In this document: positions 9,230 to 36,421 of the stretch, in pieces
How the letters are laid out: every line of letters begins with the position of its first letter
Position numbering within the stretch: the first letter of the stretch is position 1
Assembly (NCBI GenBank): GCA_030431515.1
Contig: JAUIIX010000021.1
Coordinates: forward strand, 1-45,654
Reading direction: 5' to 3'
Source: a bacterium
Lineage (GTDB): Bacteria; Bacteroidota; Ignavibacteria; Kapaibacteriales; UBA2268
DNA length: 45,654 nt
The notes under the pieces: generated by a model
Seen by the model: only the letters and a program-made list of their open reading frames with translations
Databases searched by the model: none
Told to the model about the DNA's origin: nothing
Translations under genes and position numbers: made by a program

Positions 9230-12200
9230 CTATTTCTTCTCTATCATTTCTATTTTGAGTACTTTTTGCGTAGAATCAGTGATTTTATATTGGTCAGCTA
9301 TTCTATGTTGGCATAGCCAAATAATATTAACTCTATCTGTCAGTACTAAAATATCTTTTTTCTTCAATAAAGGAATTTTATTATTTGTTAAAAAATCATT
9401 GATTTTAATTCTACCAGTCATTCCAATAGGAGTAAATTTATCACCATCTTGAATATGTCTAATTTCTAACTTATCAGGCATATAATCTAAATCAAAATAT
9501 TCTATATTTTCAGATTCACCTAACACAACTTTGGTTTTAGGGCATTTTGATAATTTGAATATTTTATTTTCAAACTTAAATTCGCCAATATTATCAATTA
9601 CTAATGAGTTAGTCCTGAATAATTGATTTCGAGCTATAAAGATTGTATCACGGTCTTTATAAACTGTAAGCATATCGTTAATTGCAAATGAAGCACCTGG
9701 TTCTGAATTATATAAACTTAATATACCTTTTACAATATTTTGACTAAGATTATTAAAGTTAAAATTATTTTTGAGTATTAATCCAATAATTTCTGCTTTT
9801 ACAAAATCATCATATAAGAATAATTTTACTAAATCTATTTCGACATAAGAAGTTTTCTTTTCTAATATAACTTCTTGAACATATTTTTTAACTTTATGAT
9901 AAATAAATACATCAGCAGAATTAATTAGTTTAGAAGCTTTATTAACAGATTGAACAATATCTCTGTCAAAAAGTTCTTGCATATAAGGTAAAAGTTCATT
10001 TCTAATTTTATTTCTTAAATAAATGTTTTGTTTATTTGATTGATCTTCTATCCATTTTAGACCTCTTTTGCTAGCATATTCTTCCACTTGTTTACGAGAA
10101 AGATTCATTATTGGTCTGATAACATTAACATTTTGATTTAAAGAACGTTTAATTGGAATACCACTTAAACCAGATAATCCACTACCACGAAGTAAGTTAA
10201 TAAAAAATGTTTCAGTAGAGTCATTTGCATTATGAGCTAAGGCAACAAAATTAGCGTCAACTTCTTCGGCTATTTCTTCAAAAAATTCATATCTTAAATT
10301 TCTCGCTGCTTCTTCAACAGAAAATGATCTTTTCATTGCATATTCTTTAACATTTTCTTTTTTGCTAAAAAACTTGATGTTGTACTTAAATGCCATTTCT
10401 TTTACAAATTCTAAATCTTGAGGAGATTCTTTTCTCAAACTATGGTCAAAATGTGCAATGAATAAAGTGTATTTATTATCTAAACTTAGATTAGCAAGAA
10501 TATCTAAAAGTACAATAGAATCACAGCCACCACTAACTCCAACTACTATTTTTATATCATTATCAATGTATAAATCCTTTGTAATAAACTCATTAATCTC
10601 TGCAAAAAGATTTTTGTAATAAGATTCTCTTTTTTGTTTAGCTGTTAATAAATCTTTTTGACTCAACTTCAGAATATGAACACCTTTCTTTTGAGAAGCT
10701 GACTTTTTGTTATTCTGATTTTTTACATTTTGATTACTCTTCTTATCCTCGTAAATACGTAAAGGAACTGGTTTAAATCGATCACTTGCTTTTACTATTT
10801 TAATAGGTGCTTTTTTCTCAGTAGTATCTGTAGTTCCATTTACTTTCTTATCATCGACTTTCTTATCATCAACTTTCTTATCATCTTTAGTAGTTTCTGC
10901 ATTTGCTTTCAAATCTGCTTTTAGCACTAAATTTAACTTTTTCTTTTCAATTTTCAGTGCGTCAAGTTTTTGCTCTATTTCTTTTATTTCAACATCTTTA
11001 ACTATCTTTTTAGATGTTTTGTTTTTTGCTTTGACTTTAGTTTTATTTTCTTTATTATCATCAACAATCTTTTCAACTTTCTTATTTTCTTTAGCCACTT
11101 CAGCATTAGCTTTCATGTCGGCTTTAAGAATTAAAGTTAATTTTTTCTCCTCAATTTTTAGAGCATCGAGCTTTTGTTCGATTTCTTTAATCTCAACATT
11201 TTGATTAGCTTTAGTTTTCTTCGTTGGTTTTTTCTTTTTAGTCGTAGTTTTAGTTTCAGGAATTACTTTTTCCTCAACTTTTTTATTTTCTTTAACTTCT
11301 TCCTTAATCTCAGGTTTCAAATCAGCTTTAAGCACTAAGTTTAATTTTCTTTCTTCTACAGCCGGACTTTCAACTTTCTTGACTTCTTCAGTAGCTTTAA
11401 CTTCTGCTTTTTGATTAGCTTTAGTTTTCTTCGCTGGCTTTTTCTTTTTAGTAGAAGTTTTAGTATCAGAAATTACTATTTCCTCAACTTTTTTACTTTC
11501 TTTAACTTCTTCCTTAATCTCAGGTTTCAAGTCAGCTTTAAGTACTAAGTTTAATTTTCTTTCTTCTACAGCCGGACTTTCAACTTTTTTCACTTCTTCA
11601 ATAGCTTTAACTTCTGTTTCTTTAGTCGCTTTAGTTTTCTTCGTTGGCTTTTTCTTTTTAGTAGAAGTTTTAACATCAGGAATTACTTTTTCCTCAACTT
11701 TTTTACTTTCTTTAACTTCTTCCTTAATCTCAGGTTTCAAGTCAGTTTTAAGCACTAAGTTTAATTTTCTTTCTTCTACAGCCGGACTTTCAACTTTTTT
11801 TACTTCTTCAATATCTTTAACTTCTGCTTCTTTAGTCGCTTTAGTTTTCTTCGTTGGCTTTTTCTTTTTAGTAGAAGTTTTAGTATCAGAAATTACTATT
11901 TCCTCAACTTGTTTATTTTCTTTAACTTCTTCCTTAATCTCAGGTTTCAAATCAGCTTTAAGAACTAAGTTTAATTTTCTTTCTTCTACAGCCGGACTTT
12001 CAGTTTTCTTGACTTCTTCAGTAGATTTAACTTCTGCTTTTTGATTAGCTTTAGTTTTTTTCGCTGGCTTTTTCTTTTTAGTAGTAGTTTTAGTTTCAGA
12101 AATTACTTTTTCCTCAACTTTTTTAGAGTCAATAACTTTATCGTCAATTTTTACTTCATCTACTTTGCTAATAGTTTTAGCAGTTTTACTAACTACCTTT

Positions 12201-12418
12201 TTAGGAGAAGTTTTTTTAACTACTTTTGGTTTTGCTACTTTTTTTTCAATAGTAGTAGATTCTACTTTCGTAGGAGTTTTACTCGCTTTTACAGCAGTCT
12301 TACTTTTACTTGTAGTTGCTTTAGGAGATTTTTTAATTGACTTAGTAGCAGATGTTTTTTTGGTAACATCTTTTATAACTTCATCAGTAAGTTCAGTTTT
12401 AGTAATTTTTTTAGCCAT
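9230..12418 (-). CDS. tilS: tRNA(Ile)-lysidine synthase with a ~600-residue Lys-rich repeat extension
   Basis: 1062 residues against ~430-450 for normal TilS. The carboxy part (~600-1062) is a complete TilS, which makes lysidine at C34 of tRNA-Ile(CAU): PP-loop SGGCDS at 629-634, then HFDHSLRKES, HNANDSTETFFINLLRG, IRPIMNLSRKQVEEYA and DQSN, followed by the carboxy-terminal domain (FTPIGMTGRIKINDFLTNNKIP). The first ~600 residues are low-complexity and very basic: an Ala/Lys/Thr start, five 70-residue repeats (each with TKKKKPxKKTK and AVEERKLNLVL), two diverged units (KEIEQKLDALKIE) and a triple VDDKK. No Met lies between the repeats and the PP-loop, so the domains are read as one protein. 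No clear ribosome site precedes the ATG. Confidence 0.9.
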   Translation of the reverse strand: MAKKITKTELTDEVIKDVTKKTSATKSIKKSPKATTSKSKTAVKASKTPTKVESTTIEKKVAKPKVVKKTSPKKVVSKTAKTISKVDEVKIDDKVIDSKKVEEKVISETKTTTKKKKPAKKTKANQKAEVKSTEEVKKTESPAVEERKLNLVLKADLKPEIKEEVKENKQVEEIVISDTKTSTKKKKPTKKTKATKEAEVKDIEEVKKVESPAVEERKLNLVLKTDLKPEIKEEVKESKKVEEKVIPDVKTSTKKKKPTKKTKATKETEVKAIEEVKKVESPAVEERKLNLVLKADLKPEIKEEVKESKKVEEIVISDTKTSTKKKKPAKKTKANQKAEVKATEEVKKVESPAVEERKLNLVLKADLKPEIKEEVKENKKVEEKVIPETKTTTKKKKPTKKTKANQNVEIKEIEQKLDALKIEEKKLTLILKADMKANAEVAKENKKVEKIVDDNKENKTKVKAKNKTSKKIVKDVEIKEIEQKLDALKIEKKKLNLVLKADLKANAETTKDDKKVDDKKVDDKKVNGTTDTTEKKAPIKIVKASDRFKPVPLRIYEDKKSNQNVKNQNNKKSASQKKGVHILKLSQKDLLTAKQKRESYYKNLFAEINEFITKDLYIDNDIKIVVGVSGGCDSIVLLDILANLSLDNKYTLFIAHFDHSLRKESPQDLEFVKEMAFKYNIKFFSKKENVKEYAMKRSFSVEEAARNLRYEFFEEIAEEVDANFVALAHNANDSTETFFINLLRGSGLSGLSGIPIKRSLNQNVNVIRPIMNLSRKQVEEYASKRGLKWIEDQSNKQNIYLRNKIRNELLPYMQELFDRDIVQSVNKASKLINSADVFIYHKVKKYVQEVILEKKTSYVEIDLVKLFLYDDFVKAEIIGLILKNNFNFNNLSQNIVKGILSLYNSEPGASFAINDMLTVYKDRDTIFIARNQLFRTNSLVIDNIGEFKFENKIFKLSKCPKTKVVLGESENIEYFDLDYMPDKLEIRHIQDGDKFTPIGMTGRIKINDFLTNNKIPLLKKKDILVLTDRVNIIWLCQHRIADQYKITDSTQKVLKIEMIEKK
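11206..12115 (-). repeat. 210-bp tandem repeat inside tilS
   Basis: The marker GCCGGACTTT recurs at 11361, 11571, 11781 and 11991, an exact 210-bp (70-codon) period with no frame change. Four full units (12115-11906, 11905-11696, 11695-11486, 11485-11276) are followed by a fifth that diverges after about 70 bases. Units differ by scattered substitutions, some of which change the protein (S/P after VI, ANQK/ATKE). Confidence 0.92.
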
Positions 12419-27276: not shown

Positions 27277-27621
27277 ATGTCACAGATTAAAATAGATGAA
27301 CAAATTGGCGGAACAGTTATACGTCTGAAGGGGCAATTTGTAGGTGGAGAAGAAACTGATGAATTAAGAAATGCCCTAAAAAGTATTAGCGATTCGCAAA
27401 AAAATCATTTGATTATTGATTTGAAAGATACAACATATCTTAACTCAACTGCTTTAGGGGTGCTAATATCAGCACATGCTAACTTCGTAAAAAGAGATGG
27501 AAAAATCATTTTATGTAATATTAGCAAATCAATCGAAAACATTTTTGTTATTACTAAACTAACTATGGTGTTTACAATAACAGAAAAATTAGAAGAAGCA
27601 ATAAAAGAACTTTCAAAATAA
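27277..27621 (+). CDS. STAS-domain anti-sigma factor antagonist
   Basis: 114 residues, a single STAS domain as in SpoIIAA/RsbV: IGGTVIRLKGQFVG, then LIIDLKDTTYLNSTALGVL with the phosphorylatable Ser in LNSTALG. Such proteins bind anti-sigma kinases of the RsbW/SpoIIAB type, or other partners in envelope or secretion control. No kinase or phosphatase is adjacent. A TATTTTTG box (27223-27230) upstream fits a Bacteroidota -10, without a convincing -35. It lies 31 nt before exbB and may be the first gene of the Ton cluster transcript. Confidence 0.88.
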   Translation: MSQIKIDEQIGGTVIRLKGQFVGGEETDELRNALKSISDSQKNHLIIDLKDTTYLNSTALGVLISAHANFVKRDGKIILCNISKSIENIFVITKLTMVFTITEKLEEAIKELSK

Positions 27622-27652: not shown

Positions 27653-28435
27653 ATGAAAAATGCATTTAATTGGATAGTAATTATCCTTACTCTAATAATC
27701 TGTTACGCTTTTTATGAGATTGTAATGGGTGATGTTTCACGTTTCTTAGATGGAGCAACAAGACACGAACCAGATCCAAATGACTTATTAGCCGTGATTT
27801 ACACTGGTGGACCTATCGTTTCTCTTTTGATGTCTTTCGTTATCTTAGGTATTACTTTCTCTGCTGAGCGTTTATGGGTGCTTGCAAAAGCTAAAGGAAA
27901 AGGAAACCCAGAAATCTTTATTAAAAATGTAATCAGTGATTTGGCTAATGGTAACTTAGATGATGCTTTAACTAAATGTGATGCTCAAAGAGGATCAGTT
28001 GCTAACGTATTAAGAGCATCAATAGTTAGATTTAAAGAAGTTGAAAATGATCCTGAATTTATGAATGAAAAGAAAATTTCTGAAGTTCAAAGAGCTATCG
28101 ATGAAGCTATGAACTTAGAAACTCCACTATTAGAAAGAAACTTAGTGATTTTATCTACTATAGCTTCTATTTCTGTACTATTTGGTCTATTAGGTACTAC
28201 TCTTGGTATGATTAGAGCATTTAGAGCATTAGCTCAATCTGGTACTGTATCTGCTACTCAACTTTCTCTTGGTATCTCTGAAGCACTTTACAACACTGCT
28301 GGTGGTTTGATTGGTGCTTTGATTGCGATTATGATGTATAATTTCTTTACTACTAAAGTTGACAATTTCGTATATATGATAGACGAAGCTATTTTGAGTG
28401 TAACTCAAATTTTCACTGGCAGAATTAAAAAATAA
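27653..28435 (+). CDS. exbB: ExbB/TolQ/MotA-family proton channel
   Basis: 260 residues. Inner-membrane subunit that, with ExbD, turns the proton gradient into force on TonB. Three hydrophobic segments: one at ~5-25 (WIVIILTLIICYAFYEI), one at ~45-65 (GGPIVSLLMSFVILGITF), and the pair ~165-230 containing LFGLLGTTLGMIRAF and NTAGGLIGALIAIMMYNFF, the conserved channel helices. The TTLGM and TAGGL signatures fit ExbB/TolQ. AGGAG precedes the ATG. It is followed after 9 nt by exbD1. Confidence 0.92.
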   Translation: MKNAFNWIVIILTLIICYAFYEIVMGDVSRFLDGATRHEPDPNDLLAVIYTGGPIVSLLMSFVILGITFSAERLWVLAKAKGKGNPEIFIKNVISDLANGNLDDALTKCDAQRGSVANVLRASIVRFKEVENDPEFMNEKKISEVQRAIDEAMNLETPLLERNLVILSTIASISVLFGLLGTTLGMIRAFRALAQSGTVSATQLSLGISEALYNTAGGLIGALIAIMMYNFFTTKVDNFVYMIDEAILSVTQIFTGRIKK

Positions 28436-28444
28436 GGAGCTATA

Positions 28445-28972
28445 ATGGCAAAAGTAAAGAAAAATAGAGTCGGCTTTGTTATTGATATGACACCTTTGGT
28501 GGATATCACTTTCCTACTTTTGACTTTCTTTATGTTTACTGCTAAGTTTAAATCTGACGCAGAGAATGAACAGAAATTTATTATTGAAAGACCAAAGGTA
28601 ACAGCAGATACTTCTAAGTTACCAGAGATTGACATAGCAACTATTAAAATCGCTTTCACTGATTCTACAAGAGTCGATACCAGTTATTATTTTTCTATGA
28701 GCAACCAAGAAAGTTTTGCTTCATTAAAAAATACTACTGATGGGCTTACTAAAGAACAGAAAGAAAGTGCTTTAATCCAATCTGATTTGCTTACTCTCGA
28801 AAAAATTGTTAGAGAAGTTTATAGGATTGATTTTGCTACTGGAGCTTTGGATACAAAGTTTGCTATTGATGCTGATAAAGACCTTCCATTTGATTGGGTT
28901 AACAATGCAATGGAAGTTTTGAGAAAGAACAATTATACAACTTTTAATTACGTAACTGATAAAAAGCAATAA
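28445..28972 (+). CDS. exbD: ExbD/TolR-family protein 1
   Basis: 175 residues. A basic start, one transmembrane helix with the key Asp (FVIDMTPLVDITFLLLTFFMF), and a periplasmic domain longer than in proteobacterial ExbD (~140). It forms the dimeric core of the ExbB channel. AAGGAG precedes the ATG. It shares the helix almost residue for residue with the second ExbD, but their periplasmic parts differ, so the two probably form a mixed core. Confidence 0.9.
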   Translation: MAKVKKNRVGFVIDMTPLVDITFLLLTFFMFTAKFKSDAENEQKFIIERPKVTADTSKLPEIDIATIKIAFTDSTRVDTSYYFSMSNQESFASLKNTTDGLTKEQKESALIQSDLLTLEKIVREVYRIDFATGALDTKFAIDADKDLPFDWVNNAMEVLRKNNYTTFNYVTDKKQ

Positions 28973-29051: not shown

Positions 29052-29648
29052 ATGGCTGGCGGCGGAAGTTTAGGCGGTGGCGGAAAGACCAAAAGAGGAA
29101 AAAGTAGTAACAGAAAAACTAAAAAAAGAGTTGGATTCTTTATTGATATGACTCCTTTAGTTGATATTACTTTTTTACTTTTAACTTTCTTTATGTTTAC
29201 CACTACAATGGCTACTCCTCAAATTATGAAGATGGCAGTTCCACCTGAAAGAGATGTGGAAGTTCAAGTTCAAGAATCAAAATTATTCACTATTTTAGTT
29301 GATGAGTTTGAAAGAGTATTTTGGTATCCAAGAAATGATGAACTTGTTGAAATTGAAGTAAATGAAATTAAAAAATTAGCAGAAGAACAAAATTTAAGAC
29401 CGGAAGTTAAAAACGAATTAATTACTTCTTTGAAAGTTTCTCCCGATGCGTCTTATGGCTTAATTGTTAGAATTCTTGATGAATTAAGCATTGCTGAAGG
29501 GAATATAACTAAAGAATTGATAAAAGATGGATTAGTTAGAGAAAGAAAATTCTCTTTAACTAAATTATCAGAATTAGATATTCAGAAGTTAGCTGAGGAA
29601 GCTCCTGCAATGGATAAAAATGAAGAAGAAGTAGAGAAGGAGAATTAA
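29052..29648 (+). CDS. exbD: ExbD/TolR-family protein 2
   Basis: 198 residues. A Gly/Lys-rich cytosolic tail (MAGGGSLGGGGKTKRGKSS) precedes the membrane helix FFIDMTPLVDITFLLLTFF with the proton-relay Asp. The periplasmic part (~65-198) has an extra acidic carboxy end. Two exbD genes in a row before tonB are typical of Bacteroidota. AAGGAAA before the ATG. It has its own ECF-type promoter and is translationally close to tonB (1 nt gap). Confidence 0.9.
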   Translation: MAGGGSLGGGGKTKRGKSSNRKTKKRVGFFIDMTPLVDITFLLLTFFMFTTTMATPQIMKMAVPPERDVEVQVQESKLFTILVDEFERVFWYPRNDELVEIEVNEIKKLAEEQNLRPEVKNELITSLKVSPDASYGLIVRILDELSIAEGNITKELIKDGLVRERKFSLTKLSELDIQKLAEEAPAMDKNEEEVEKEN

Positions 29649-29649
29649 A

Positions 29650-30444
29650 ATGGGACAGATAGTAGTAGAACCGCATATCTCCGATTACGGAGCGAGAGAA
29701 ATAAAAGAACTAATAAGAAAATACACTTGGCGTGCATTTTTTGTTACCAATAGTGTCTTTCTTCTTTTATTCTTAGGATACTATGTTTATGGCGAGATTG
29801 TTAACTCAGGTGATTATGCACCGCCTTTGGCACCTCTTGCTTTAGGTATTACAGAATTAACTGACTTGAATGAACCACCACCACCTCCTGATGATTTGGC
29901 GGCACCACCTCCACCACCACCACAAGTGATGGTACAAGGCGGACCTCCTCAGAGAGCTGGTACTCCTATTCCAATCCCAGATGCTGAAATAGCACCTGAC
30001 CTAAAAGAATTTGCATCGATGGATGTAATGAGCAGAGCTTCTGCTGAAGGTGGAGATGGAATTGATTTAGGTGGTTTCTCAGATAAGATTAATTTTGCTG
30101 AACAAGATCTTGATGTAAAAGCAAGAGAAGAAGAGTTACCTGCTGAAGGTGAGTTTATTCCAGTTGAAAAACAACCTGGTGTAGATATTGGTAAATTACA
30201 GAAATTAGTTGAATACCCTGACTTAGCGAGACGTTCTGGAGTTGAGGGGAAAGTAACTGTGAATGTTTTAGTTTCTAAAACAGGTGAGGTTTTAAAAAGT
30301 AAAGTTATACATTCAGATAGCCAGTTATTAGACCCAGCTGCACTTGCTGCTATTAAAAAATACGGGAAATTTACTCCTGCTATTCAAAATAAGCAACCAG
30401 TAGCGTGTTGGTTATCAGTACCAATTATTTTCAAATTGAGATAA
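29650..30444 (+). CDS. tonB: TonB energy transducer
   Basis: 264 residues with full TonB layout: cytosolic start, one membrane anchor at ~33-55 (FFVTNSVFLLLFLGYYVYG), a Pro-rich spacer (NEPPPPPDDLAAPPPPPPQ) and a carboxy-terminal TonB domain (~178-264: YPDLARRSGVEGKVTVNVL, then KKYGKFTPA and ACWLSVPIIFKLR). It carries energy from ExbBD to outer-membrane TonB-dependent receptors. A terminator ~50 nt downstream separates it from the domain-only paralogues that follow. Confidence 0.93.
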   Translation: MGQIVVEPHISDYGAREIKELIRKYTWRAFFVTNSVFLLLFLGYYVYGEIVNSGDYAPPLAPLALGITELTDLNEPPPPPDDLAAPPPPPPQVMVQGGPPQRAGTPIPIPDAEIAPDLKEFASMDVMSRASAEGGDGIDLGGFSDKINFAEQDLDVKAREEELPAEGEFIPVEKQPGVDIGKLQKLVEYPDLARRSGVEGKVTVNVLVSKTGEVLKSKVIHSDSQLLDPAALAAIKKYGKFTPAIQNKQPVACWLSVPIIFKLR

Positions 30445-30491: not shown

Positions 30492-30520
30492 AAAGACTCA
30501 GTCTATACTGGGTCTTTTTT
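30492..30520 (+). terminator. Rho-independent terminator after tonB
   Basis: AAAGACTCAG (30492-30501), loop TCTATA, CTGGGTCTTT (30508-30517): 10-bp stem with one G-T pair, then T-run. Confidence 0.85.
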
Positions 30521-30548: not shown

Positions 30549-31532
30549 ATGAAATATTTACTATTATTATTAATTATTAGTTCTAATTTGTTTTCACAAG
30601 CAAATGTAGATGAGCCGATTAAATTTGATTTCAATGAGTTATTGACTGAAATAAAGTTAAGTGAAGAAACTTCAAATATTAATGGAAAAGTTGTAGTTAA
30701 TATCTTTGTTAGCAAACAAGGTAAATTAACTAAAACTGAGATTGTTTCATCAGAAGATAAGAGATTAGAACCAATAATTATTGATGCACTAAAAAAATAT
30801 AATAAATTTACTCCTGCAAGAAAAAATGGAGAATTTGTAGATTCTTGGATTAAAATGCCTTTTGTATTTTCTGCAAAAGATTCTAAAAATACTGTTTCTT
30901 ACTATAATGCTAACCCAGAATTAGAAGAAATCAAGTTAGATAAAAATCCAGAAATTGACATGAATAAACTAATGTCAAAAGTAGTATATCCTAAGTATGC
31001 TATTGAGAACAAGTTAGAAGGAAAAGTTATTGCTTCTATTTTAATTAACGAAGAAGGTGAAGCAGAAGAAATTAAAATATCTTCTTCCGAAAACCCAGTT
31101 TTCAACGATGCAACTAAAGACGCAATCAAAGCTTATGGAAAATTTATACCTGCTGAAAAAGATAATCAAAAAGTAAAAAGTTGGGTTTCTATTCCTTTTA
31201 ATTATGCTCTAACAGTAACAGAAGAAAAAATTGATGAATCTAATAAAAATCAAGTAAATGCTAAGTTTGATTTAGAAAAATTAATGAAATTAGTAAAATA
31301 CCCAGAAGAAGCCAGAAAGCAAGAAATCGAAGGTAAAGTAATTGTCAAAGTATTAATAGACGATAAGGGTAAATTCACTAAATATGAAATAGAACACAGC
31401 GACAACAAAGTATTAAACGAAGCTGCCTTAAATGCAGTGAAAAAGTATGGAAAAGCAGAATCACCAGCAACAGTGAATGGCAAAGCAACAGCAAGTTGGG
31501 TCTTTCTTCCTATTCAATTTAGATTGAAGTAA
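30549..31532 (+). CDS. Exported protein of three TonB carboxy-terminal domains
   Basis: 327 residues. A signal peptide (MKYLLLLLIISSNLFSQ) replaces the membrane anchor, and there is no Pro-rich spacer. Three TonB-type domains follow, at ~20-107, ~134-222 and ~238-327. Each has the pattern 'YP..A...EGKV...VLI...G', a helix 'AL.A.KKYGKF.PA', and the end strand 'SW..IPF.F'. The first is the most diverged. It should lie free in the periplasm, so it cannot itself be energised by ExbBD. Candidate roles are a receptor-docking competitor, an adaptor or a sensor; none is shown. AAGGAG lies before the ATG. The stop overlaps the next start by one base. Confidence 0.85.
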   Translation: MKYLLLLLIISSNLFSQANVDEPIKFDFNELLTEIKLSEETSNINGKVVVNIFVSKQGKLTKTEIVSSEDKRLEPIIIDALKKYNKFTPARKNGEFVDSWIKMPFVFSAKDSKNTVSYYNANPELEEIKLDKNPEIDMNKLMSKVVYPKYAIENKLEGKVIASILINEEGEAEEIKISSSENPVFNDATKDAIKAYGKFIPAEKDNQKVKSWVSIPFNYALTVTEEKIDESNKNQVNAKFDLEKLMKLVKYPEEARKQEIEGKVIVKVLIDDKGKFTKYEIEHSDNKVLNEAALNAVKKYGKAESPATVNGKATASWVFLPIQFRLK

Positions 31533-32008
31533 TGAAATATCTCTTCATCATATTATTCTTAATTTTAAGTGTGAATGTTTATTCGCAAGAGAATATTTTT
31601 GATACAGTAAGAAATACCAATAGTATTGAAAATGTTGAATTCCCAGATTCAGATTTAATTTATAAAGTTGAAAAACATCCTGTTGTAGATATAGAAAGAC
31701 TTACAACATTACTTAAGTATCCCAAAGTAGCTTTACAGTATGGTGTAGAAGGGAGAATAATAGTAAAGGTATTAGTTAGTAAAGATGGGAAGGTTCTTAA
31801 AAGTAAAATTGAATATACAGATAGCCCATTATTTATAAAGCCAGCACTATATGCAATCAAGTCTTATGGATATATTGAGCCAGCATTATTGAATGGAGAA
31901 AATGTAGCCTGTTGGTTAACAATTCCAATTACATTCAAATTGAGTGGTGGTGATTCTTTAGATAGATTTTTTGAAATTTTGAATGGATTATTATTTCTAT
32001 TTTTATAA
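31532..32008 (+). CDS. Exported single TonB-domain protein
   Basis: 158 residues: signal peptide (MKYLFIILFLILSVNVYSQ), short linker, one TonB carboxy-terminal domain (~45-137: LKYPKVALQYGVEGRIIVKV, IKSYGYIEPA, ACWLTIPITFKL) and a hydrophobic tail LNGLLFLFL. The signal-peptide DNA (31541-31594) is identical over 54 bp to that of the next gene (32029-32082), a sign of recent duplication or gene conversion. Overlaps the previous gene by one base. Confidence 0.82.
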   Translation: MKYLFIILFLILSVNVYSQENIFDTVRNTNSIENVEFPDSDLIYKVEKHPVVDIERLTTLLKYPKVALQYGVEGRIIVKVLVSKDGKVLKSKIEYTDSPLFIKPALYAIKSYGYIEPALLNGENVACWLTIPITFKLSGGDSLDRFFEILNGLLFLFL

Positions 32009-32019
32009 ACACTGATAAA

Positions 32020-32754
32020 TTGAAAAAACTCTTCATCATATTATTCTTAATTTTAAGTGTGAATGTTTATTCGCAAGAGAATTATCCTGAATATGGAGAG
32101 TTTATTGAAGTTGATGAAATGCCAAAAGTGGATTTTAGTAAGTTAAGTAAGTTTATTAAATTTCCAGAAATCGCATTAAAAAATAATCAAGAAGGTAGAG
32201 TAATAATATCAGTTTTAGTTGATTCTGATGGTTCTCCTGTTATAAAACGAATTTTAGATTTTGATTATAGAATATTTGTACAACCATCTATAGAAGCGAT
32301 TAATAATTATGGAAAATTTATACCTGCAATTAAAGATGGAAAAAATATTCCATGCTGGATAAACATTCCCTTTAATTATAAATTTAAAGAAGATGCTAAA
32401 GTGAAAGAATTTAAGATTGATATATTAAGTAATAATCCATTTGAAAATAAGGAAGAAAACAATAAAGATATACATAAAAAACCAATTGTTGATATGTATA
32501 AAATATCAAAGTATATTGTTTATCCTCTTTTAGCTAGGCAAAAGAACATTCAAGGAAAAGTTACAGTAAAGGTTGAAGTTGATGAAAAAGGGTACTTTAG
32601 CAATTATACTATTGTTCATAGTGATAATAAAATTTTAAATAAAGCTGCTCTTGAAGCAATAAAACAATATGGAAAAGCAGAATACCCAGCAACTAAAAAT
32701 GGAAAGCCAATAAAAAGCAATTTATCTTTACCAATTACATTTAAATTGAGATAA
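32020..32754 (+). CDS. Exported double TonB-domain protein
   Basis: 244 residues from a TTG start giving MKKLFIILFLILSVNVYSQ, a signal peptide nearly the same as in the previous gene. Two TonB-type domains: ~40-125 (FPEIALKNNQEGRVIISVL ... INIPFNYKF) and ~155-244 (YPLLARQKNIQGKVTVKVE ... LSLPITFKLR). The spacer is charged rather than Pro-rich. No membrane anchor other than the signal. Part of the array of domain-only TonB paralogues. Confidence 0.82.
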   Translation: MKKLFIILFLILSVNVYSQENYPEYGEFIEVDEMPKVDFSKLSKFIKFPEIALKNNQEGRVIISVLVDSDGSPVIKRILDFDYRIFVQPSIEAINNYGKFIPAIKDGKNIPCWINIPFNYKFKEDAKVKEFKIDILSNNPFENKEENNKDIHKKPIVDMYKISKYIVYPLLARQKNIQGKVTVKVEVDEKGYFSNYTIVHSDNKILNKAALEAIKQYGKAEYPATKNGKPIKSNLSLPITFKLR

Positions 32755-32759
32755 CGAAA

Positions 32760-32981
32760 ATGAATAACTTTATAAATTACTTGATAAAATTTGTAATAAT
32801 CGCTTTTGGGATTGTTATATTCTTTAATATATTTGAATTAGATATGCCTGATACAACTCGTAGAGTTATTGGTGTAATTGTGTTTTTATTTGGTGTTTAT
32901 AGGATAGTATTATTTAGGTCGAAACAAAGTCAGTATAGATTTGAAGTGAATAAAGGGGAAGAAGATGATGAAGATGAATAA
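32760..32981 (+). CDS. Small two-helix membrane protein of the Ton cluster
   Basis: 73 residues, with two hydrophobic helices (~5-25, LIKFVIIAFGIVIFFNIF; ~35-52, VIGVIVFLFGVYRIVLF) and a strongly acidic tail (KGEEDDEDE). No family recognised. It begins 5 nt after the previous stop, and its 3' end overlaps the next gene by 17 nt. A small membrane protein near this position recurs in Bacteroidota Ton clusters as far as I recall, which suggests a role with the ExbBD-TonB machine, but this is inference. Confidence 0.65.
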   Translation: MNNFINYLIKFVIIAFGIVIFFNIFELDMPDTTRRVIGVIVFLFGVYRIVLFRSKQSQYRFEVNKGEEDDEDE

Positions 32982-33717
32982 AGTAATCTTTTTTATTATT
33001 TTACTTTTATTTGTTTCATGTTCTCATTATTCTAAATCTTATAAAGGTAAAAAGGTTTATCAGGTAAATGAATTGGATTATTATCCAAAAATTGAATCAA
33101 GTAAAATGAATAGTTTAATAGTTTATCCAAAGTATGCTTTAAAAAATAAGTTAAATGGATTTATATCATTGGATATTTTAATTAATAAAAATGGGGATAT
33201 TGTTGATTATAAAGCTAAATTTCCTTACGAAAAAATCTTTCTAAAGTCGGCAATAGATGCTTTGAGAGAATTTGGAAAAATTGAAATTGGGGTTTTTAAA
33301 GGTGAGAAAGTACCATACTGGGCTAATGTAAAATTTACTTTTTATTATAAAAATTATATTAATTCTATAATAACAAAGCAAAAAGAAGACAAAAGGCATT
33401 ATTTTTATTTAGAGGACAATATTTCTAATAATTCTAAAGTTATGTATCCAGATTTAGATATTAAAGATATACAATCTAAATTTAATTACCCAGAAGAAGC
33501 TCAAAATAAAAGTATTGAAGGATTTGTGATTTTAGACTTATACTTAAATGAAAATGGTAATATTGAGAAAAAAGAAATTCTTTTTAGTGATGACAAAATT
33601 TTAGCAAATTCGGCTTTAAAATCAATAGAAGCATTTACTAAGTTTGAACCTTTAAAAATTAACGGAAATAATGTAGCTTGTTGGTTTAGAATTCCAATTA
33701 AATATGAACTAAATTAG
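32965..33717 (+). CDS. Lipoprotein with two diverged TonB-type domains
   Basis: 250 residues. Signal with lipobox FVSC (IIFLL-type stretch then FVSCSHY), so lipid-anchored and not secreted freely like its neighbours. Two TonB-type domains: ~45-130 (VYPKYALKNKLNGFISLDIL ... VPYWANVKFTFYY) and ~165-250 (FNYPEEAQNKSIEGFVILDL ... ACWFRIPIKYEL). ATG ATG AAG ATG at the start leaves the exact start open. It is the fourth member of the domain-only array and the most diverged. Confidence 0.78.
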   Translation: MMKMNKVIFFIILLLFVSCSHYSKSYKGKKVYQVNELDYYPKIESSKMNSLIVYPKYALKNKLNGFISLDILINKNGDIVDYKAKFPYEKIFLKSAIDALREFGKIEIGVFKGEKVPYWANVKFTFYYKNYINSIITKQKEDKRHYFYLEDNISNNSKVMYPDLDIKDIQSKFNYPEEAQNKSIEGFVILDLYLNENGNIEKKEILFSDDKILANSALKSIEAFTKFEPLKINGNNVACWFRIPIKYELN

Positions 33718-33720
33718 AAA

Positions 33721-34638
33721 ATGAATATGGGAAAAAATATAATAATTATAATTTCGATGCTTATTATTAGTGCTTGTGGTGATAGCAAATACGAAACAAA
33801 AGAGCCAAGCCAAGCAGAAACTATGAACTCTGGTAAACTGAGAGTAGTTGTCGATGAAAGCATCAAATCAATTTTAGATACAGGTATGGTAATGTATCAA
33901 AATGACTATGAAAAAGTGCTATTAACTACCGAATATATGAATGCTCGTAGATCGATGGCGGAACTTTTAGGTGGTTTATCACGTTTAATAATAGTAGCAA
34001 GAGATTATTTGCCTGATGAAGATTCATTAATGAAACTCCATAAAGTAGATAAACACTATAGAATGAAAGTAGCAACAGATGCTTTAGTATTTTTTGCGAA
34101 TAAAGATTATATGATTGATACTTTGAATGAAGCTGAGTTAAAAAGAATATTTCAAGATGGGGAAAGATTATCTAAGATATTTAAGATAAATGGCGAAGCA
34201 AAATATTATATTAATGAAGTTAATTCATCTGAATATTCACACTTCAATAATTATATTTTAGATAAAAAAGAATTAAGAACAAATCTAAATTTTGTAAATA
34301 GTTCTGATGAAGTAAAAGAAAAAGTTCTTGAAGATAAAAATGGAATTGGAATTGCATATTTATCACATATTAATAAAGATGATAGATTTAAAATGATTGA
34401 GATTGGATTTCACGATAGCACTGGTAAATATATGAGACCTGTTCCAGTTCATCAAGCATATTTAGTTCAGGATAGATACCCATATCCAGTAGATTATTGG
34501 GTTTATTTACTCGAAGACAGACGTAACCTACCATTTTGGTTTGGAAGTTACATAGCTAAAGAAAGTAAATATCAAAAAATAATTTTAGAAAAAGGCATAG
34601 TCCCTGAATTTGCGAGAATTCAGTTAGTTACAGAATAA
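33721..34638 (+). CDS. PstS-like substrate-binding lipoprotein
   Basis: 305 residues with signal and lipobox ISAC (MLIISACGDSKYE). Fold of the phosphate-binding PstS type: KLRVVVDESIKSILD at the start, TDALVFFANKDYMIDTLNEAE, LKRIF, and the last lobe YPYPVDYWVYLLED. No ABC-transporter genes adjoin. In Bacteroidota a protein of this type regularly sits between tonB and a TPR gene, so it probably serves the Ton/envelope system rather than phosphate import. It starts 3 nt after the previous gene. Confidence 0.82.
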   Translation: MNMGKNIIIIISMLIISACGDSKYETKEPSQAETMNSGKLRVVVDESIKSILDTGMVMYQNDYEKVLLTTEYMNARRSMAELLGGLSRLIIVARDYLPDEDSLMKLHKVDKHYRMKVATDALVFFANKDYMIDTLNEAELKRIFQDGERLSKIFKINGEAKYYINEVNSSEYSHFNNYILDKKELRTNLNFVNSSDEVKEKVLEDKNGIGIAYLSHINKDDRFKMIEIGFHDSTGKYMRPVPVHQAYLVQDRYPYPVDYWVYLLEDRRNLPFWFGSYIAKESKYQKIILEKGIVPEFARIQLVTE

Positions 34639-34669: not shown

Positions 34670-36421
34670 ATGAAAAAAATAATTGTACTACTAGTTTTAG
34701 TTTCTTTCCAATTATACGGACAGACAACTTATGAGCAATTAAACGATTTATATAAACAAAGCAAGTTTTTTGACGCTTCAAAACTTGTAGAAGAGTTTAG
34801 TTCTTCTAACCTCAAAGATTTTAAATCTCAAGTGCTTTGTGGTGATATTTTCTATGATTTAGAAGATTATGATAAAGCATTAAAATATTATTTATTAGCA
34901 GAGAAAATTGACAAAAGAGAATATGAAATTCAATACAAATTAGGTAGAACTTACCATAGATTAGGACAAGATGGCAAAGCATTCGAATATTTAGATGATG
35001 CAATCGATGAAGTTAAAAAGAAAAAAAATATTGAAGCACACATTGAACTTGCAAAAGCTAAAATAAGAGATAAAAATATTAGTGAAGCCGAAATTTGGAT
35101 TAATAGAGCCAAAGACAAAAATAAAAAAGAACCTATTGTTTATATTACTTTAGGAGATTTATATTTTTCTCAAGGTGTTTATGAACTTGCTAAAAATAAT
35201 TATCTTGAAGCTTTACAACTTGATGATAAAAATGTACTTGCTCGTTCTAATTTAGCTGAATCATACTACTGGTTAGCAAATAGAGAATCAGATAGTGACT
35301 TAGCAAATGAATTATTCAAAAAAGCAATTATTGAATACGATTTAGTAGCCGAACTTGATCCATTCAACGCAAAAGCATTTTTTCAAACTGGAAAAGTATT
35401 ATTTTGGGCATCAAGATTTGAAGATGCAGCACCTAAATTAAACAGAGCTGTTTCTCTAAACCCTGAGAACAAATTAGCAAGATGGTTATTGGCTCAGTCA
35501 CTAAGTAACTTAAATAGATGTGATAGTGCAGCACAACACTTAGAATGGGTATCTAATAACATTGATTCAGTAAAAGTTAAAGCTCAGTTGTTACTTGCTC
35601 GTTGTTTTTCTGCAAATGGTGAAAGTATGAAAGCAGTTGCACAGTATGAGAAAATCAAACAAGATACAACTCTTGATGTAATTGACATGAAAAGATTTGG
35701 TAACGCTGCCTTTTTATCAGAAGACACAGTTAAAGCAGTTAGTATTTTTGAAGAAACTATTGCTATGAACCCATCTTCTTCTTGCGATTTGATGCTTTTA
35801 TTAGGTCAACTTTACTATGTGAAAAAAGACTACAATAATGCAATTAATAAATTTGTTCAGAGAATAGAAACTCCAGAGTGTGAAGATGGAAAAGAAAAAG
35901 CAATTTACTTCGCTGGATTATCTTCTTTATTTTATGCAAATGAAGAAGGAATTGCAACTGAGGAAAAAACATTAAGATTAGATAAAGCAGCTAAATATTT
36001 CGGTCAAGCAATTGCTTTAGATTCTACTGACTTACGTTCTATGGTGTTTATGGGCGACGTTTACGCAGCCAAAAACGATCTTGAAGCAGCAGGTGCTCAA
36101 TATGAACTTGTTATTGAAAAAGCATTGCAAGACCCAGAAAAATTCAGCCAACAGTTAAGACAATCATTCGCTAAAATTTGTGGAATGTATTTAGAAAACA
36201 AAAAATTTGATGGTGCTATTAAATACGGAACTTTATGGTCAGAAAATCAACCTGACTCTGAGTATGGTCCTCTTTATGTAGCGATTGCATATCAAAATAA
36301 ATATGTAAATTCACAAAATGATGCTGATAAAAAAGGTGCTTGCGATTGGTATAAAAAAGTACTTGATGTTAATCCTAAAAATGCTACTGCTAAGAAAAAT
36401 AGAGATGCTTTAGGTTGTTAA
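34670..36421 (+). CDS. Exported tetratricopeptide-repeat protein
   Basis: 583 residues with a signal peptide (MKKIIVLLVLVSFQLYGQ) and then TPR units along the whole length, for example YDKALKYYLLAEKIDKREYE, YELAKNNYLEALQLDDKN, FEDAAPKLNRAVSLNPENK and AAKYFGQAIALDSTD. TPR solenoids bind protein partners; as last gene of the exbBD-tonB-PstS-like cluster it probably scaffolds an envelope complex. Normal start with no overlap. Confidence 0.88.
   Translation: MKKIIVLLVLVSFQLYGQTTYEQLNDLYKQSKFFDASKLVEEFSSSNLKDFKSQVLCGDIFYDLEDYDKALKYYLLAEKIDKREYEIQYKLGRTYHRLGQDGKAFEYLDDAIDEVKKKKNIEAHIELAKAKIRDKNISEAEIWINRAKDKNKKEPIVYITLGDLYFSQGVYELAKNNYLEALQLDDKNVLARSNLAESYYWLANRESDSDLANELFKKAIIEYDLVAELDPFNAKAFFQTGKVLFWASRFEDAAPKLNRAVSLNPENKLARWLLAQSLSNLNRCDSAAQHLEWVSNNIDSVKVKAQLLLARCFSANGESMKAVAQYEKIKQDTTLDVIDMKRFGNAAFLSEDTVKAVSIFEETIAMNPSSSCDLMLLLGQLYYVKKDYNNAINKFVQRIETPECEDGKEKAIYFAGLSSLFYANEEGIATEEKTLRLDKAAKYFGQAIALDSTDLRSMVFMGDVYAAKNDLEAAGAQYELVIEKALQDPEKFSQQLRQSFAKICGMYLENKKFDGAIKYGTLWSENQPDSEYGPLYVAIAYQNKYVNSQNDADKKGACDWYKKVLDVNPKNATAKKNRDALGC

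Follow-up and report, generated by a model that had tools for sequence, protein, structure and literature searches.

An array of exported TonB carboxy-terminal domain proteins without membrane anchors beside a tonB locus of the Kapaibacteriales

The window studied here is a stretch of 45,654 nucleotides (contig JAUIIX010000021.1, positions 1 to 45,654, assembly GCA_030431515.1) from a bacterium of the order Kapaibacteriales, Bacteroidota. It contains a tonB locus with the gene order exbB-exbD-exbD-tonB, followed, at 30549-33717, by four genes, here called TC1 to TC4, for exported proteins built of TonB carboxy-terminal domains (TonB_C). We propose that the array supplies non-energized binding modules that may work together with an adjoining PstS-TPR gene unit on receptors or other envelope partners, a reading to which we assign a probability of roughly 0.38. 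The array is an enlarged form of a recurrent, poorly studied accessory with a putative function.

Four genes encode TonB domains without an anchor

A PF03544 search of the whole genome found 10 TonB_C domains, 9 of which lie in the array locus, 1 in tonB and 3, 1, 2, and 2 in the genes behind it. The original prediction, made from the DNA letters alone, had placed four genes with this series of domains behind a true TonB, and all eight array domains do exceed the Pfam cutoff; each TonB_C domain of the locus lies above the curated value, at E values of 1.7e-17 to 4.9e-7. At least two carboxy-terminal domains (CTDs) stand in series in TC1, TC3, and TC4, and TC2 has one. Misassembly of the array is unlikely, as its domains are only 20 to 53% identical to one another.

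By eye, the signal peptides of TC1, TC2, and TC3 end in MKYLLLLLIISSNLFS/QA, MKYLFIILFLILSVNVYS/QE, and MKKLFIILFLILSVNVYS/QE, and so have glutamine at position +1, which is the Q-rule of Bacteroidetes (PMC10653852). The TC4 N terminus reads LLLFVS/CSH, a lipobox. From inspection of these N termini we infer type I signal peptides for TC1 to TC3 and lipobox processing for TC4. The same inspection found cleavable-type signal peptides or a lipobox in place of the N-terminal inner-membrane anchor for ExbB/ExbD, in agreement with what had been claimed from the sequence. There is no second transmembrane (TM) segment in TC1 to TC4, and a Pro-rich stretch or periplasm-spanning spacer is absent from their translations, in which the linkers are short. 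Because the array proteins have no anchor to ExbB/ExbD, they cannot transmit force from these subunits, and the earlier statement that they cannot pull on receptors stands; the TonB transmembrane helix has an established role in taking force from ExbB/ExbD (PMC12204202). The C terminus of TC2 is a short hydrophobic stretch (SGGDSLDRFFEILNGLLFLFL, 31943-32008), and a hydrophobic C-terminal tail also follows the TonB_C domain in its counterpart from genome G003 (L082 882-1301).

All four proteins contain the PF03544 domain that characterizes TonB energy transducers (PF03544/TIGR01352). With the exb-linked members of that family they have in common the CTD fold, the motif frame (YP, EG, and W..PI), and the locus, although they lie beyond a terminator-like hairpin. 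They differ in having no N-terminal anchor or Pro-rich spacer, in their serial domains, and in the absence of the glutamine of the PA-x-Q-N hairpin. By the features that define membership, the array proteins are not TonB energizers.

Predicted structures

AlphaFold gave TC1 as three separate beads on flexible linkers (pLDDT 90, pTM 0.46) and TC4 as the TonB carboxy-terminal fold (pLDDT 83). The best Foldseek matches of both models were TonB CTDs, some of them receptor bound, including for TC1 the receptor-bound chains 6i97_D (TMt 0.81) and 2gsk_B (TMt 0.76), and a sequence-profile comparison with the PDB agrees with this assignment. A fold unlike that of TonB and an overlooked anchor, the two results named in the original prediction as speaking against it, were both looked for; the models and their Foldseek matches together with the inspected N termini lead us to reject both. 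The TonB_C part of the model for MxcH-type receptors (NF038079) matches TC1 at an E value of 1e-26; however, the receptor barrel is absent from the array proteins, and their scores are far below the 925-bit cutoff. The membrane part of M56 peptidase/MecR1-like proteins (M56/BlaR1 type) is likewise absent from the array proteins, in which only TonB_C-type matches reach the cutoff.

Among the structural neighbors of the TC1 and TC4 models is the CTD of FusB (7zc8 and 9hi3). This TonB homolog binds its ferredoxin substrate directly (PMC7593965), and that precedent, along with the divergent loops of the array domains, is consistent with domains that might bind imported cargo or cell envelope components and not receptors. 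We regard this as improbable, since the neighborhood suggests no cargo and the sequence points to no ligand.

The array and the PstS-TPR unit

A hairpin resembling an intrinsic terminator lies between tonB and TC1 (Table 1). Among 88 distinct tonB loci in the clade, 62 have a hairpin with a T-rich tail no more than 130 bases 3' of tonB, compared with 10 to 15 in shuffled copies. Such hairpins are widespread behind tonB in Kapabacteria-type loci, and their stem sequences are unrelated. From TC1 to the TPR gene the coding regions are nearly gapless; TC1 and TC2 overlap by 1 base, TC2 and TC3 are 11 bases apart, and a small gene for a 2-TM protein overlaps TC4. Together, the hairpin and the tight packing place the array at the start of the PstS-TPR unit and not at the end of the motor unit, and the array, 2-TM, PstS-like, and TPR genes are probably made from one transcript. 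An array that forms the tail of a tonB operon is made unlikely by the hairpin. The original prediction was thus right that the genes sit next door to tonB on the way to the PstS-like and TPR genes, but the terminator speaks against one unit with tonB. It likewise listed the four array reading frames correctly and overlooked the 2-TM gene at 32760-32981. Matches to sigma-70-like promoters were hardly above chance (62 versus 53) and were not used.

Table 1. Features of the array locus and related fusion genes
Feature	Position	Strand	Details
STAS-domain protein, anti-sigma-antagonist-like, upstream neighbor	27277..27621	+	PF01740, E 9e-15
ExbB/TolQ-type motor subunit	27653..28435	+	PF01618, E 3e-29
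ExbD/TolR-type protein 1	28445..28972	+	PF02472, E 6e-16
ExbD/TolR-type protein 2	29052..29648	+	PF02472, E 4e-16
tonB: N-terminal TM anchor, Pro-rich spacer, one TonB_C (30211-30438)	29650..30444	+	PF03544, E 2.6e-20
Intrinsic-terminator-like hairpin and T tail between tonB and array	30492..30517	+	46-nt fold, -13.9 kcal/mol, z -5.2
TC1: signal peptide, three TonB_C (1a 30672-30872, 1b 30981-31211, 1c 31293-31526)	30549..31532	+	327 aa; Pfam E 5e-46
TC2: signal peptide, one TonB_C (31712-31942), short hydrophobic C-tail	31532..32008	+	158 aa; Pfam E 9e-14
TC3: signal peptide, two TonB_C (3a 32158-32382, 3b 32512-32748), TTG start	32020..32754	+	244 aa; Pfam E 5e-33
Signal-peptide tract, 62 bp	TC2 31533..31594 and TC3 32021..32082	+	97% identical to each other
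Small 2-TM protein between TC3 and TC4	32760..32981	+	73 aa; no Pfam family; counterpart in relatives, e.g., L082 1316-1546
TC4: lipobox, two divergent TonB_C (4a 33121-33342, 4b 33481-33711)	32965..33717	+	250 aa; Pfam E 2e-24
PstS-like (PBP_like_2) lipoprotein	33721..34638	+	PF12849, E 2e-11
Exported TPR protein, final gene of unit	34670..36421	+	37% identical, full length, to L082 2463-4166
Exported TPR-TonB_C fusion proteins	L133 6356-7303, L134 6371-7303, L141 6371-7303		

Sequence constraint and the lost glutamine

Forty-four alignment columns are conserved in anchored TonBs, the set by which those columns were themselves defined. The array domains keep 27 to 66% of these residues, compared with 89% in the TonB of the window and a mean of 90% in anchored TonBs, and for the single exported copies of relatives the share is about 61 to 75%. 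Of the 92 anchored TonBs in the alignment, 91 carry the glutamine of the PA-x-Q-N hairpin. None of the eight array domains and no exported single copy has it; fusions of TPR repeats to a TonB_C domain keep it, and most second paralogs lack it. Part of the anchored set, the named loci, had been picked with patterns, one of which includes the PA-x-Q-N stretch, and the statement rests mainly on exb-linked anchored TonBs chosen independently by hidden Markov model (L011-L029, L069, and L070), all of which have the glutamine. The altered loop suggests a partner or an affinity unlike that of TonB. Loss of the residue may reflect such a change, or constraint that relaxed when the domain lost its coupling to the motor.

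These differences bear on the proposal that soluble domains might fill the TonB boxes of receptors and so act as competitors or as a brake on TonB-dependent uptake. TonB-box binding by the array domains is predicted by analogy, and the models do resemble receptor-bound TonB CTDs. A periplasmic TonB fragment is inhibitory when overproduced in Escherichia coli, to judge from the title of Howard 2001 as cited in PMC9769762, and in Riemerella hemin uptake is inhibited when TbfA is overexpressed (PMC5109031). However, the missing glutamine in all array domains and exported copies and the strong divergence from the TonB consensus argue against unchanged specificity, and within the family the number of TonB_C domains does not track that of receptors (rho 0.23, P = 0.29). 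In the genome of the window 20 plug domains of receptors were found. The capping or competition at TonB boxes first suggested for the array has become less likely on these grounds, and we consider a brake rather unlikely overall. Nor is a larger set of receptors supported within the family as the cause of the expansion; across 40 genomes the correlation of TonB_C with receptor count was 0.39, and genome size explained more (0.67).

Some phages and bacteriocins use TonB for entry, and the array proteins could conceivably be decoys against agents that come in through TonB-dependent receptors. That general use of TonB and the fast divergence of the array domains are what speaks for decoys. We think this very improbable, as decoys should keep the specificity of TonB, apparently lost here, and no defense-like gene was seen among the neighbors, for which the PADLOC library was not searched.

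Nonsynonymous divergence (dN) is below synonymous divergence (dS) in most pairs of domains, with dS near saturation, and clearly so for pairs 1b-3a, 1c-3b, and 2-tonB; dS is saturated for the closest pairs, so that dN/dS can be read only qualitatively. The low dN of these three pairs indicates that the fold of their domains is still selected.

Duplication history

In a domain tree of 56 rows and 96 columns with several long branches, 1b is sister to 3a (96/85) and 1c to 3b (97/91), which points to a two-domain block duplicated between TC1 and TC3. With so few columns and several long branches, the tree does not place the TC4 domains and 1a. The nearly identical tract shared by TC2 and TC3 spans the signal peptide only, with the mature parts far apart, and the signal peptide appears to have been recently copied or converted between the two genes. 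The sister pairs and this tract, at 97% identity over 62 bp, bear out the growth by duplication that the original prediction had drawn from the varying domain number. The exported copy of genome G010 (L014) groups with the tonB of that genome (100/99), from which it was copied. Three or more changes on well-supported branches are needed to explain the exported state, and one common origin of all exported copies is rejected as far as a tree of 96 columns allows.

Exported TonB domains in relatives and across the phylum

Most of the closest named matches to the tonB domain come from bins of Candidatus Kapaibacterium, Kapabacteria, and Ignavibacteria. There are 2 to 6 TonB_C domains per genome (median, 3) in 23 relatives of the family, against 10 here. 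The tenth domain of this genome belongs to a second anchored, Gly-rich TonB-like protein (G000:C138, L030 5462-6253), the gene for which adjoins genes for a SPOR-like protein and an outer-membrane protein that looks like a barrel. Most relatives have weak TonB_C matches of comparable length. In four other genera of the family (G003, G010, G016, and G019) and in G028 of another family, one exported TonB_C gene lies between tonB and PstS. The assembly of G003 (L082) has a frame break between the signal peptide and the domain. Only G034, among the matches listed, has another exported two-domain TonB_C protein in the order, and a scan of genome contigs with TC1 gave no match. Three Chlorobi-like loci (L133, L134, and L141) have the order exbB-exbD-exbD-tonB-2TM-PstS-[signal peptide+TPR+TonB_C]-TPR, which was read over its whole length at L133 and L141. 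Their fusion proteins resemble the array proteins in being exported without a TM anchor and in carrying TonB_C in a PstS-TPR unit behind tonB; they differ in their fusion to TPR, their single domain, and the retained glutamine.

Tandem exported TonB_C proteins were found in about 15 genomes among the loci read in a survey of 395 phylum genomes with a two-domain profile, in which N termini were sorted by a rule of thumb. Genome G139 has a five-gene array of exported TonB_C-only proteins with 2+2+2+1+1 domains (L051 6024-9189). Like TC1 to TC3, these proteins consist of a signal peptide and TonB_C domains and their genes are arrayed, but they lie away from tonB and from any PstS/TPR unit, and the domains are only distantly similar to those of the window. 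The first ~125 residues of the second and third proteins at L051 are nearly the same, a recent duplication. Exported TonB_C-only proteins are therefore not unique to the genome of the window; what distinguishes that genome is the enlarged array beside tonB. Chu et al. (Biometals, 2007) reportedly described TonB proteins in which two C-terminal domains follow each other. The array has tandem CTDs in common with such proteins and differs in its four genes in a row; the array proteins themselves have no anchor. TM-anchored proteins with two to three serial TonB_C domains and no Pro-rich spacer are encoded at L052 5789-6580, L053 4996-6135, and L054 4381-5520, near a conventional tonB and a gene for a two-domain lipobox protein.

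Possible function

In the scheme that we prefer, the four genes descend from tonB-type C-terminal domains by tandem duplication with loss of the anchor, and their products are predicted to be exported to the periplasm, TC1 to TC3 as soluble proteins and TC4 as a lipoprotein. The domains may pair there with beta-strands of envelope partners, which could be receptor N termini, TonB, or either of the PstS-like and TPR proteins. Such pairing might retain receptors near the motor, pass them on, or dampen them there, without pulling. Since the array shares a unit with the PstS and TPR genes and a TonB_C domain is elsewhere fused to TPR repeats, the TPR/PstS side is the best place to seek a partner; the fusion is a Rosetta-stone hint at the TPR protein. 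The TPR gene may be compared with TtpD2 of the Vibrio TonB2 systems, a TPR accessory encoded downstream of tonB. In Vibrio vulnificus, iron uptake through TonB2 requires the TPR protein encoded behind tonB2 (PMC6957404); in the part of that paper available to us, TonB_C-only proteins are not reported for these systems.

Several observations weigh against a working role for the array. The Rosetta-stone link comes from one lineage, and a TPR identity of about 21% may be generic TPR similarity. Most relatives are entirely without exported TonB_C genes of this type. The TC4 domains and 1a sit on long branches (2.2 to 2.7), and in several pairs with a TC4 domain dN comes close to dS.

The main rival explanation is that the array genes are by-products, frequent partial duplications of tonB at a hotspot that acquire a signal peptide and, with only weak selection acting on them, drift without a fixed job. 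Besides the patchy presence, long branches, and TC4 ratios just given, the several origins of exported copies, one of which groups with its own tonB, the low share of conserved residues kept, and the frame break behind the G003 signal peptide are all in keeping with this. On the other hand, about 980 codons in four genes are still open with conserved cores, dN is well below dS for several domains, and exported copies recur in five genera of the family, the genome of the window included, and elsewhere in the phylum. We hold drift to be unlikely on balance, though it deserves more weight than any other rival. If the array is only drift, the locus still illustrates clearly how partial duplication recurs and signal peptides are exchanged.

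Returning to binding modules, a broader version, which we put forward as speculative, would make anchorless TonB domains a recurrent periplasmic accessory of a TonB-PstS-TPR module in Bacteroidota, with non-energized, multivalent adaptors that gather or park several receptors or the TPR and PstS-like proteins at the motor and a domain number tuned by duplication. TonB has been treated as a puller linked to its motor. Exported copies of its binding tip alone, which arose repeatedly beside tonB and in one lineage were fused to a TPR module of the same unit, suggest an unstudied layer of control or organization of receptor coupling in Bacteroidota. Exported TonB_C proteins also match generic TonB family models and are liable to be mislabeled as energy transducers.

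Other genes of the window

One or two STAS-domain genes lie directly 5' of exbB in several relatives, and one does here (L014, 2332-3059; L016, 2012-2795; and L089), and these could regulate the motor unit. Elsewhere in the window, inspection by eye indicated the C-terminal part of an RHS-type repeat protein at 24-1556 and, on the reverse strand at 9230-12418, a TilS-like tRNA-lysidine synthetase of 1062 aa in total whose N-terminal extension is very long, rich in Lys, and internally repeated.

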